A stretch of 64,000 bases of DNA from the NCBI GenBank assembly GCA_010094025.1, contig ML991808.1, positions 242,477 to 306,476 of the forward strand. Direction: 5' to 3'. Of the stretch, positions 6,251-12,540 are shown in pieces. Within the stretch, counting starts at the first letter, position 1. Every line of letters starts with the position of its first letter. The translations under genes and the position numbers were made by a program. The notes below the pieces were generated by a model. It was not told where the DNA came from. It worked only from the letters and a program-made list of their open reading frames with translations, and made no database searches. Source of the stretch: Viridothelium virens. Its lineage: Eukaryota; Ascomycota; Dothideomycetes; Trypetheliales; Trypetheliaceae.

Positions 6251-9200
6251 CTATGCATTTATATCGACAGGGTGCCATTCCAATGCCGAAGCTGCAAACT
6301 CGTCGGTGTCCATTCTTAAATACCATGAGGTCATCTGCGACGCCGGATGGTTATTTAGGGCGCACCTGAACAGAGCACTAGCGAATTGCTTGGCGAATTT
6401 GTCCTCGCTCAATTTGACACGCTTGTGGCGTCTAATCATGATTTCGATGTCTGTTTCCTGGACGGCGTGAGCTCGGATAAAAGCTGCGAAAAGCGGTGCG
6501 TCTTCAAGTGTGATAGCTCGGTAAAGCAATGCCGTAACTTCAGCCGTTTTGGCAACCTTGGCTGAGGTTTGGCACGCCTGAGGTTCTCCATACTCCAGCA
6601 AAAAAACCAGAAATTCGGTACTTGCAGGCCTGTTCTCGTTTACATTTTTCAGAAAGTCATGCAGAGCAATATCCCACGGTGTTCTACCGTGCTGATCCCT
6701 TTCACTCATTGGTGCGTCAAATTCACGAAGGAGACTGCAGAAGGATAATCTTTGCTCCCCAGACGATCGAATGACGTTCCAGGAATCCAATAGTACCAGA
6801 TGGAAGGCTGTAAGACCAAAACGATCCTTTTCGCGCACATCTGCAAGACCAGCATCAAGCAACAGTCTCCCAGCCTCCACATGCGCACACATTGCTGTAA
6901 GAAGAAACGGGCTTCGGCCATCAATATTGCCTTCCAGACTAACGGATGCAGCTGGTTTCTGCAAAAACAATTTCATCATCTCTACATCGCCAGATCGAGC
7001 GCACATATGCAGGGGCGTCTCAAGCTCTGAGGGCTTGACAATGCTGTCTGCCCTTATCAACGGGGCAATAGCTTGAACAGCCGCAAAATCACCAGACTCG
7101 ATGGCGGCAGCTATTGGAGTCTCGTCAAGATCATTTGCGATCGTGACTTCGGCTCCATACTGCAGTAATAAGCGAGCTATATCTTTTCGAGAGCTATGAA
7201 CTGCCATGTTGAATGGTGTATTGCCAACGTAGTCGCGGGCATTAACAGCTGCGCCATATTGAAGTAGGGCCATGGCGATCTCCCGATTCTTCTTCAGAAT
7301 AGCACAATGAAGTGGGGTTCCCCACATCAAAGATTGGCAGTTCACACTTGCTTCATATCTCAATAGAACTTGCACAACATCAAGAGCTTCGTGGAGACAG
7401 GCCCAATGCAAAGCAGATCGACCTTCGTTATCAAGAACCTCGATATCAGCGCCCCGTGAGAGTAGCCATTCACTATTACTAGCTGAATGGCTGATGAGCA
7501 GTGCCGTTTTTCCGCCCAAGTCTCTTGAATGGAGCAATTCAGGTGCTTCACGGAGTATGTACTGCGAAGCACAATCATATGGGCCTGTGACAGCAAGGTG
7601 GAGAGGTGAGCGGTGACCAGAATCAACTGCTTGTAGGCCGCTCTGGCCAGATTCCTTGATAATCCTCTAAATGTTAATTGAGGAGGGAGTGTTCCTGTGA
7701 CTGGCAAGCTGCGCCGCAAAGTGAATAGGATAAGTATACTTTTGCTTGTCCTGGGGGCCTCCCAAGACATGTTCAGCAAGGAGAGGGTCGGCTTCAACGA
7801 GCGCAGACACGACAGCTGTGTCGTTGAAGTCGATCGCTTGCATAAGGGGGCTTACTCCGCTTGAAGTCGCAAATCGAAGTTTTTGCTTAGCTTGGAAGCC
7901 AACCGCCTGCGCAAGAGTATCTTTGGTATCTTGGATCTTTCTGATTGTATCCATCAAATTCTTCTTCTGGTCTTTTCCGTGTATAGCACGCCTTTCCACT
8001 GGAGATGAGAAGCTAAGAGCACATGCATACGGCACGGATGACTTCGGAAAACCAGACGACAGATATCCTAAAAGTACATCTAGAACATCAGGCAGGTGAT
8101 ATTTGATGGCAAGATGAAGTGAATTCCAGTGAGAGCGATGATCGGTTTCTCCAAATTGGCCCAAATGATAGACTAGGGCTTTGGGATCCGCTCCAAGCTC
8201 GAGAAGTGCAAGAACCGCGTCTTTGGACCTCGATGCTATTGCAAATGCTATCGGTGTCCCGAGTAGCTGCAGAGGCCACTGCTTATGCAGAACATTAACG
8301 GTATGAGAAGGGGCATGGAGAGCCGGATCATCTATATACGGGGTTAGCTTTTCGCGAGTGAAACTCCGAACAGAGTCACCAAGCAGAAATAACCAATGAA
8401 ATGCATTTGTGCCATCAATACATCTGGCTTGTGGGCTTTCGCCCTGTTTCAGAAGCGCTAAAGCAGCTCCGACCAGTCCGGTACGAATAGCATGAACCAG
8501 AGGTGTCTGGTTTGAATTGGGAGCAAGCCCAGCGGCATCAAGATTGCGTCGGCTTTTACTGCTAAGTTTTGTACTGAGGGTCATCAAAAGCGATAAGTCT
8601 CTAAACAGGATTAGGGTGTCGGCGACGTCCAGAGGCTTATCAAGATCGTTAATCCAGACTGATCTAGTAGATAGATCCAGTCTCTCTGAATTTGACAAGA
8701 TCCACGAAGAGAACTCCGTGTAATTTGGGAAGCGGATCTGCTTCGATTTGATGTTGCCAAGATTGAAGCTAATTGATTTGTCTCTAACCAGTGATGGCGT
8801 TGTGCAAAAGGCTGAGACGACAATAGAGTTGTACCATTCCGTGTTACAGGTATTTTGGAGACTGTCAGGAATGAGCACGGTCGTGAGGCTGGTCAGTATC
8901 TGGTCATAACCTTGTGCCTTCTTTGCAAATTCGGCAGCCAGCTGTAAATTCTGTGGGGTACCAAATTCGAGGAAATGGCAGAGGGCCAGCTCCCAGGCAG
9001 ATTCCATGGCTTGCCTGGTCTGTTTATTCAATGAGTTATGACATCTCTCAAAATCATGGAAAATTTGCTCCTGGATGCTCCATGAAATCTCAAACCCGCC
9101 ATCCGCCCGAAACATCTGGGTTCAAACGTTATCACAACGCCTTCTTGAGCAGTGAGGAACATACCTCGAAAGACCAGTCAGACGTCCCCGAGTGCAAAGC

Positions 9201-10826: not shown

Positions 10827-12540
10827 ATGGATCCTTTGAGTATTGCTGGACTGACCCTTGCGGTGTTTGACCAGCTATGGAAATTGGGTAAAGCAACAGC
10901 TGAGCTTCTCTCTACGTACAGAGCTTTTGATAGCGTACGAGTCGAAGTGAATGCGCGTCCAAACCCGACTAAGAGCTCATAGGAATCGAGGAGTCTTGAG
11001 AATAAGACCAGGGATGAAACTCATCGAACTCGAGCCTTGCGGTTACTGTTATTCCAGCCATCTCCAGTCTGTATGACCGTCGATAATCGATACTGAAGCG
11101 ATGTTGAACCATATTTAGGAGTACGATGGTAATGCTTTGTTCGAGCAATTTGATGAAGAAGTTCAAAATGAGATTCAGCTGTTCTTAGAAGAATTATGCA
11201 GCGTCGTTGAGGAAGCTCATCGGCTTCTGAGTCGCCCGCGGCGGGCCGACAAAACAATCGCGTCGGACGGAAATTCTACCTCTAGCATCTCTAAACGATT
11301 GCGATGGACATTACTCGACAAGAAACGTATCACGACGCTTATCAAGGACTTCGCCGAGCTCAATGGTAGGATTCTTGCTAACATCAAGCTATGGTGCCTG
11401 TCTATGTCAATCGGTGTCAATTTACAGCACCTGCGACGCCTGGAAAACGATTCCAACTCAAAAAAGCTGGGATTCGACGTCGATGCAAGACTTCACTTGG
11501 CCGCAAGCTATGCGGAGAGCACCGAGGAAACGTCAGAGCTTAAGGATCCAAAGCTTCTGCCCGCCGTCGAGAACGCAAAGAGATTTGGAGACAAGTTTGG
11601 TGTCATTGAGTGGGAGGGAAAACCAGCATTAGTTGAATTCCGCTCCTACGATAGCGATGCACCAGTTCCAGTTGTCATCGACTCTCGAACAAGAGAACTT
11701 GTGGACCACCTGGCGAAACTGCTTCACCAACCAAAAGAGCTCCTATTCAGAATGCCCTCTTGTATAGATTGGATACTAAAGCCTCTGACCAACGAATATT
11801 CCTTCATCTTTGCGGTGCCACCTGGCGTACGTCCGGATCCCATAAGCCTTTTCGAAGTCCTTTCCCTTTCGGTATCCATGAAACCATCCTTAGGTGATAA
11901 ATTTCGTTTGGCACTTGGCCTGGCGCGATGTATTTCGCAGCTTCAACTTGTCAAATGGGTTTGCTTCCTGCCCCGTCTGGGCATAGATATTCTGACTTCT
12001 GAACAGGTGCACGAAAGCTTTCGCAGCGCTAACATACTTTTCTTTCCCACTGAGGATGGCAACGAGCGTTCGAGTGAATCCCGCAGAAATCTCGACTTCT
12101 CTCAGCCCTGGGTGCTTGGTTTTGATTTCAGCCGTCCCGAGAGATATTTTTCATCTGGCATTGAAGACACATGCCCGCTTCGCGATGTTTACCGACATCC
12201 TGAACGTCAGCAAAGCCCATCATGCCCTTTCAACAAGCTACACGATATATACGCCCTTGGTGTTGTGCTATTAGAGACTGGCCTTTGGCAGCCTGCCATA
12301 TCTCTTGAGAAGGACCAGTTCAAAAAATTGCGGGATCCAATGTCGATCAAGAAATGCCTCATTGCGCAAGCAGAGAAGCGCCTGGCCTCTCGAACAGGGG
12401 AAAAGTACAAGACGGTTGTTCTAAAATGCTTAAATGGCGACTTCAAAGTCATGGATGACACAAAAGAGGATGCAAAATTGCAACGAGAGTTCCGCACTCA
12501 GGTTGTGGATATTCTAGAGAAAGCCGTTGATAGCATTTGA
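10827..12540 (+). CDS. HeLo-like N-terminal domain plus pseudokinase-like C-terminal domain
   Basis: Exons 10827..10934, 10983..11066, 11119..11958 and 12007..12540 give 521 residues. The N-terminus (MDPLSIAGLTLAVFDQLWKL) and the following helices (LFEQFDEEVQNEIQLFLEEL) resemble fungal prion-inhibition-and-propagation HeLo-type helical domains, known in HET-s as membrane-active death domains. The C-terminal half resembles the degenerate kinase-like domain often attached to them (DUF7580 type): WVHESFRSANILFF in place of the HRD catalytic loop, GFDFSRPE in place of DFG, YRHPE in place of APE, then DIYALGVVLLETGLW. No catalytic Asp is visible, so it should be a pseudokinase. The stopless 48-nt intron 11959..12006 is supported because removal restores WVHESF. 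The donor at 11067 (GTCTGT) and its acceptor are less certain. It is head-to-head with the kinase/ankyrin gene. Confidence 0.75.

Follow-up and report, generated by a model that had tools for sequence, protein, structure and literature searches.

Necroptosis-like cell death in fungi has been described so far as driven by amyloids and NLRs. Plant MLKLs, reportedly set out by Mahdi in 2020, are said to join a HeLo-like domain to a kinase-like domain and to act in immunity. Fungal HeLo/NLR two-gene modules include het-S/nwd2 and HELLP/PNT1 (PMC10197012, PMC12881547), and HeLo is a membrane-targeting killer domain (PMC12881547, PMC3689799). Three Podospora anserina proteins of 630-652 amino acids (Pa_4_8870, Pa_6_8690 and Pa_7_7510) are described as HeLo plus 'Pkc-like' (PMC3689799 Table 5), two of them being induced in incompatibility (6.55- and 4.31-fold) and the third not (0.42; PMC3689799). 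A 2025 review mentions two- or three-gene clusters as well as HELL domains in kinase/pseudokinase proteins (PMC12881547), at het-v a methyltransferase is paired with a TUDOR/HeLo protein (PMC9262711), and Pm13 is reportedly a plant immunity protein of the MLKL type (PMC10951266). Here we analyse two head-to-head genes in a 64,000-nucleotide stretch of the Viridothelium virens genome (the window): gene A, which encodes a kinase with ankyrin repeats, and gene B, which encodes a putative HeLo domain and a pseudokinase.

An earlier sequence-only reading had proposed this pair, with divergent genes 325 bp apart, and had interpreted it as a possible fungal counterpart of necroptosis signalling. At the level of sequence the pair is confirmed as described, a kinase gene and a gene of MLKL-like layout diverging from start codons at 10501 (-) and 10827 (+), and the overall interpretation is partly supported. 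The architecture of B is known in outline; the kinase partner, conserved and recurrent, is apparently new. In the literature consulted, some of it available in part and most subscription journals lying outside its scope, no report of a kinase-ankyrin gene linked to a HeLo-pseudokinase gene was found.

Sequence features of the two genes

The exon/intron model of A was spliced by hand (introns 10465-10403, 9695-9639, 9290-9226 and 9164-9116). Pfam recognises a kinase domain (Pkinase, 83.7 bits) and ankyrin repeats (Ank) in the product, and the catalytic residues are all in place (Table 1), in agreement with the apparently active kinase with C-terminal ankyrin repeats that had been proposed. In an alignment of 29 A-family sequences, window included, the lysine is found in 28 (with one gap), HGD and the loop lysine in all 29, DFG in 28 (with one DFS) and APE in 28-29 per column. 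Because these residues are kept across the family, A should be catalytically active. Ankyrin repeats are present in 24 of 24 aligned relatives, in five of which the middle region matches Sel1 repeats.

The comparison of A with RIPK4 held for layout and failed for kinase sequence. Among RIPK1-4-type kinases, C-terminal ankyrin repeats are known to follow the kinase only in RIPK4 and ANKK1. Searched against PDB, the A-family kinase profile matched IKK-beta, ULK1 and TNNI3K best, along with many others, and no RIPK was among the best 60 of its 1363 matches; membership of A in the RIPK family was therefore rejected, and since the profile favours non-RIPK kinases, the likeness to RIPK4 is one of layout only. 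The window's own kinase exon, searched alone, matched Roco4 and LIMK2 first. General Pfam scans of A, B and the A relatives, which included no search aimed at RHIM, returned no RHIM. An N-terminal 'SWNT' motif considered as common to A and other kinases was dropped, its single match in this genome being A itself, as was a look-alike judged by eye only at the start of another kinase (locus L029, see below).

The ankyrin region of A contains an in-frame TAG inside a putative 75-nt intron (7739-7665). Removing this intron yields exactly a deposited protein of Trypethelium eluteriae, P0124, which corresponds to the C-terminal part of A (893 of 893 residues); from this protein identity, the T. eluteriae assembly probably carries the same DNA there. 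T. eluteriae is a lichen fungus, assigned by its lineage record to the Dothideomycetes, and its deposited protein P0001 is near-identical to B, from which it differs by one residue (N/D) besides a differently modelled N-terminus. Because protein is present across the 7739-7665 segment in 24 of 24 aligned relatives of A, a nonsense allele is no less likely than a new intron, and this species may have a damaged A.

The 521-residue product proposed for B was recovered after splicing three introns (10935-10982, 11067-11118 and 11959-12006). The third is in frame and 48 nt long, and 81 of 87 aligned sequences have a gap at a column inside it; its retention gives a model of 537 amino acids. The HeLo match expected for the N-terminus was found, for the sequence alone, with a Pfam score of 24.0 bits, marginally above the curated cut-off of 23.2. 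Among 62 B relatives scanned at E<=0.01, a threshold that differs from the curated cut-off, DUF7580 was present in 59 and HeLo in 46. The B-family profile matched the HET-s HeLo structure 2wvo at E = 0.14, and two sister proteins from the same genome matched it more strongly: L025 over residues 38-191 (E = 7e-4) and L030 (E = 2.9e-6). At the extreme N-terminus, where HeLo domains have a membrane-seeking helix, residues 4-18 of B have a mean hydropathy of 1.37, among the highest of its 15-residue windows. Pfam found no amyloid motif in A or B.

The losses of the catalytic Asp and of the DFG Gly claimed for B both hold, with the correction that the DFG Asp is replaced as well (GFD). The catalytic loop reads H-E/K-S-F-R-S-x-N in nearly all members of the B family, with Ser at the catalytic Asp position in every one of the 87 sequences, and the DFG site reads G-F/Y-E/D, with Glu at the third position in 74 of 87 and Asp in 8 of 87, window B included; GFE also occurs in the aligned MLKL chains. 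The VAIK-Lys column, assigned by hand, holds Glu in 85 of 87 sequences and Asp in two. Judged by these residues, the B family is a conserved pseudokinase.

Against PDB sequences, the four best matches of the B-family profile were all MLKL (4m68, 4btf, 6vc0 and 6vbz; E = 0.0034-0.019), in an alignment spanning GFE and the loop; B-Raf and IRAK4 came next. Residues 348-509 of L025 likewise matched MLKL 6vbz (E = 0.0017). MLKL was thus the best kinase-fold match in two of four queries, the family profile and L025, and not for L029 or L030; since the sister proteins are relatives of B, this check is not fully independent. The conserved FSxG serine of the activation loop (Ser in 81 of 87 sequences, Thr in 5) is aligned to a Ser in the SISRT stretch of the mouse MLKL loop, the stretch with the RIPK3 sites S345/S347. 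A HeLo/four-helix bundle and a pseudokinase in one chain constitute the MLKL layout, and this is the predicted arrangement of B. The proposed MLKL-like layout thus draws support from the family profile and L025 and none from L029 and L030, and a kinship of B to MLKL is tentative.

Table 1. Features of the A/B locus (positions in the window) and A/B pairs with consecutive locus tags in other fungi.
Feature	Position or locus tags	Strand	Details
Gene A: kinase, middle region, C-terminal ankyrin repeats	6251..10501	-	exons 10501-10466, 10402-9696, 9638-9291, 9225-9165, 9115-6251
A kinase domain, residues 69-285	9527..10234	-	K95, HGDLKLEN, DFG, APE all kept
A ankyrin-repeat region	6800..8260 (approximate limits)	-	Pfam
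In-frame TAG in A ankyrin region	7667..7669	-	inside putative 75-nt intron 7739-7665
Intergenic region	10502..10826		325 bp between both start codons
Gene B: HeLo + pseudokinase (DUF7580), 521 aa	10827..12540	+	exons 10827-10934, 10983-11066, 11119-11958, 12007-12540
Pfam HeLo (PF14479) match in B	11209..11370	+	residues 95-148 of 537-aa model
DUF7580 match, B pseudokinase domain	11881..12531	+	Pfam 33.4 bits, cut-off 27
Degenerate catalytic loop HESFRSAN	12010..12033	+	Ser for catalytic Asp
GFDF replacing DFG	12118..12129	+	third position Glu/Asp in family
Activation-loop Ser (FSxG)	12151..12153	+	HMMER alignment with Ser of mouse MLKL loop
Consecutive-tag pair, Bathelium	M1822_004662/004663		locus tags
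Consecutive-tag pair, Bathelium	M1821_004405/004404		locus tags
Consecutive-tag pair, Hypomontagnella	F5Y04DRAFT_279131/279132		locus tags
Consecutive-tag pair, Geoglossum	M1840_008310/008309		locus tags
Consecutive-tag pair, Trichoderma viride	ACHAQJ_007811/007812		locus tags
Consecutive-tag pair, Akanthomyces	LLEC1_03547/03548		locus tags
Consecutive-tag pair, Fusarium equiseti	NW768_004124/004125		locus tags

Recurrence of the pair within and between genomes

Family searches of this 30.7-Mb genome gave 14 HeLo, 10 DUF7580 and at least 139 kinase matches (124 of 197 kinase candidates scored); once merged, these amount to 18 HeLo/DUF7580 loci and 104 kinase loci. At six of the 18, a kinase gene in divergent orientation lies no more than 3 kb away, and at none does one lie so close in another orientation. 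Under uniform placement the expected chance is 0.5% per locus, and the probability of six in 18 is 3e-10. Excluding the window pair gives P = 2e-8, and excluding also the sub-threshold L028 gives 4 of 16 and P = 1e-6, or P = 1e-5 when all 197 kinase candidates are also counted as loci.

The six pairs are that of the window and those at loci L025 to L029, where the parts of each gene were read from separate open frames. Kinase, ankyrin and HeLo parts are present at L025, L027 and L029, and also at L026, with a TAA inside the HeLo-matched stretch; L028 consists of a kinase fragment and a pseudokinase, with no ankyrin repeats and no HeLo in the open reading frames scanned. By inspection, the catalytic Asp is kept in the five partner kinases and lost in the pseudokinases. 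BLAST places the partner kinases in at least two groups, one with L025, L027 and L029 and another with the window, L026 and the unpaired L042 and L043, and the HeLo-pseudokinases match each other in 28 of 28 pairs. A third kinase group was not upheld: it rests on the 86-residue fragment of L028, which has only weak BLAST matches to the other partner kinases.

The two unpaired loci related to A (L042, G000:C81; L043, G000:C50) have kinases 31-33% identical to that of A, with no HeLo neighbour within the 10 kb examined. Beside the L026 pair, a WW domain follows ankyrin repeats in the same open frame (L026:4802-6088, +). Three of the six pairs, L028, L025 and that of the window, lie within about 96 kb of contig C38 (~159000-255016), a 306-kb contig whose end is the window, and this stretch is a possible island of such modules. 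The window also contains a HET-domain (heterokaryon incompatibility) open reading frame about 30 kb from the pair (43080-44036, +) and a Dicer-like RNA-silencing gene with helicase C, Dicer dimerisation and RNase III domains (32511-36245, +).

In other fungi, we compared an A family of 29 members (P0121-P0149) with the 120 B-family matches listed out of 198. A shared contig was deduced from identical contig sizes in protein listings, which give the longest contig for each protein. By this measure, 18 of the 29 A members share a contig with one of the 120 listed B members, as against none of 23 more distant members of the same A search. Together with the repeated divergent pairs in this genome, this rejects chance linkage, and the linkage spans three classes, Dothideomycetes, Geoglossomycetes and Sordariomycetes (four lineages looked up), so that the pair recurs in related genomes as the sequence-only reading would have it. 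Divergent orientation was read in this genome only, the evidence elsewhere being shared contigs and locus tags.

Seven of the 18 pairs have consecutive locus tags (Table 1), and in T. eluteriae the tags are two apart (Q9157_001428 and Q9157_001426). Five further pairs lie on contigs shorter than 100 kb (8166, 54762, 39443, 41641 and 14241 bases). Since the last five, from Rosellinia, Cenococcum, Diplodia, Bimuria and Plenodomus, share only a long contig, they are evidence of co-occurrence rather than of adjacency. The remaining 11 of 29 A members have no partner among the listed B members, some of which cases may be explained by clustering at 90% and by the 78 other B matches. A later A profile search (120 listed of 150 matches) brought one near addition, P0173 (762 bits), whose contig is not matched among the listed B members; the next new match scored 320 bits. 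Because 10 of the 29 known members were missing among those listed in that search, the A family is delimited only tentatively. No B relative was confirmed in viral contigs or in prokaryote genome contigs.

Proposed mechanism and alternatives

We see an even chance that A and B form a two-gene, NLR-free, kinase-gated HeLo module for death or defence, with a logic like that of RIPK3-MLKL. The ankyrin repeats of A, with the middle region, would be its sensor or scaffold. Once A is engaged, its active kinase would target the pseudokinase part of B, in the simplest case through phosphorylation of the FSxG serine of the activation loop, and the N-terminal HeLo bundle would thereby be released or oligomerised and would attack the plasma membrane, possibly in non-self recognition or defence. 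We infer the interaction of A with B, the direction of signalling, the phosphosite and the membrane attack: kinase-to-pseudokinase signalling is suggested by the repeated pairing of one intact with one degenerate kinase, and the sensor and membrane-attack steps are proposed by analogy with known domains. In favour of this mechanism stand the architecture of the two proteins, the intact catalytic motifs of A beside the degenerate ones of B, the MLKL and HET-s matches of the B family and L025, the conserved linkage, the recurrence of divergent pairs in this genome, the induction of two of the three Podospora HeLo/'Pkc-like' proteins in incompatibility, and a correlation of A with B distances across 17 pairs (Mantel r = 0.92, p = 1e-4), as expected of a jointly inherited pair.

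Several observations weigh against this mechanism. The E-values to MLKL are weak, and B lacks the VAIK lysine, which MLKL retains. The HeLo match of B is marginal, and that of the first member of the B family, P0008, falls below the cut-off (21.3 bits). L030 has no kinase match below E = 0.9 among PDB sequences, and the L029 pseudokinase matches GCN2 (E = 0.0011) and neither MLKL nor HET-s. The FSxG serine is as conserved in linked B proteins (14 Ser and 1 Thr, n = 15) as in those without known linkage, and is therefore not specific to linked copies. A stop interrupts the ankyrin region in this copy of A, Ile replaces the catalytic-loop Lys in the L029 kinase, and the L028 pair joins a sub-threshold DUF7580 match (23.8 bits) to a kinase fragment. 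Within the stretches examined, no kinase gene adjoins the HeLo-pseudokinase genes L030 and L040, and no HeLo gene adjoins the A-like genes L042 and L043. Of the 120 listed B members (of 198 matches), no more than 18 share a contig with an A member, so B may also act without A. Finally, shared species history would by itself make A and B distances co-vary.

Signalling could also run the other way, with B as an allosteric pseudokinase activator or scaffold of A. Its HeLo domain would then serve only to anchor or oligomerise the A/B complex at the membrane, and A would signal by phosphorylating other targets. Pseudokinases commonly activate partner kinases, as STRAD does LKB1, and such a role would suit both the apparent catalytic integrity of A in its relatives and the marginal HeLo match of B. 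We nevertheless consider it unlikely: the MLKL-like union of HeLo and GFE pseudokinase in a single chain fits an effector better, and the wider listing of B (198 matches) than of A (at least 29 members) would be odd for a dedicated activator. Alternatively, the 325-bp gap may be a shared divergent promoter of a defence gene set, from which A and B are expressed without acting on each other. Short-gap divergent genes often share promoters. In Podospora, moreover, genes up-regulated in incompatibility and non-self responses are clustered (PMC4835503, PMC3689799). Such co-regulation does not readily account for pairing kept over three classes, or for six divergent pairs, at least two kinase groups and no other orientation in one genome. 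That a single effector family is paired again and again with two or more kinase groups, in this genome always divergently, makes co-regulation alone less likely, and we place its probability low, behind that of reversed signalling.

Least probable of the three, in our estimate, is that A restrains or guards B, which would fire upon loss, alteration or mismatch of A, as might happen when hyphae of unlike strains fuse. Two-gene incompatibility loci can indeed carry a HeLo/MLKL-type domain, as in het-v (PMC9262711), het-B reportedly also holds two genes that interact (PMC10890737), and conserved linkage would keep A and B together. A conserved and probably active enzyme is, however, unneeded for simple binding, and the stop in the ankyrin region of A next to an open B frame would be expected to cause toxicity if B had no brake other than full-length A.

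A broader form of the kinase-gated mechanism would make A and B members of a whole fungal class of divergent, NLR-free HeLo modules, in which more than one kinase lineage partners a single HeLo-pseudokinase family, and would have the MLKL architecture and the kinase step of necroptosis ancient by common descent of fungi and animals. We regard this extension as doubtful. We found no fungal description of the kinase step in the literature consulted, as far as it was available, and if the extension is true this step would be ancient.

Comparison with known systems

Plant MLKLs resemble B in combining a HeLo-like with a kinase-like domain, the plant proteins serving immunity; to our knowledge, they have no divergently linked kinase gene. 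The Podospora HeLo/'Pkc-like' proteins, compared by description only, share with B a HeLo and a kinase-like domain, but the available sections of PMC3689799 make no mention of a linked active kinase. For the HELL kinase and pseudokinase proteins, in turn, those of PMC12881547 do not name a linked kinase-ankyrin gene.

In the fungal HeLo/NLR modules, as is proposed for A/B, a gene for a HeLo-type effector stands beside a sensor gene. Conserved adjacency, by which fungal two-gene sensor/effector systems are recognised, was found for A and B, down to adjacent locus tags in seven pairs. The A/B partner is, however, a kinase-ankyrin protein and not an NLR, and Pfam finds no amyloid motif in it, whereas Ses_B is found at L035 of the same genome. 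At that locus (G000:C24:320500-330400), a HeLo protein with a C-terminal SesB motif (4779-5591, -) diverges from a TPR/DUF7779 gene (6578-8317, +), which looks like a classical HeLo/NLR amyloid module.

Compared with animal RIPK3-MLKL, A is not a RIPK by sequence and has ankyrin repeats, B lacks the VAIK lysine kept by MLKL, the two genes are divergent neighbours, and the kinship of B with MLKL is weak in E-value. In both systems, the effector would combine an N-terminal membrane-attack helical bundle with a pseudokinase of the GFE type, next to a separate active kinase. In design the A/B pair resembles RIPK3-MLKL, but A is no member of the RIPK family. Being conserved and repeatedly encountered, the pairing of a probably active kinase with a HeLo-pseudokinase offers an immediate candidate for a phosphorylation switch of the RIPK-MLKL kind in fungi, and would help to decide between an ancient origin and repeated invention of the MLKL design.

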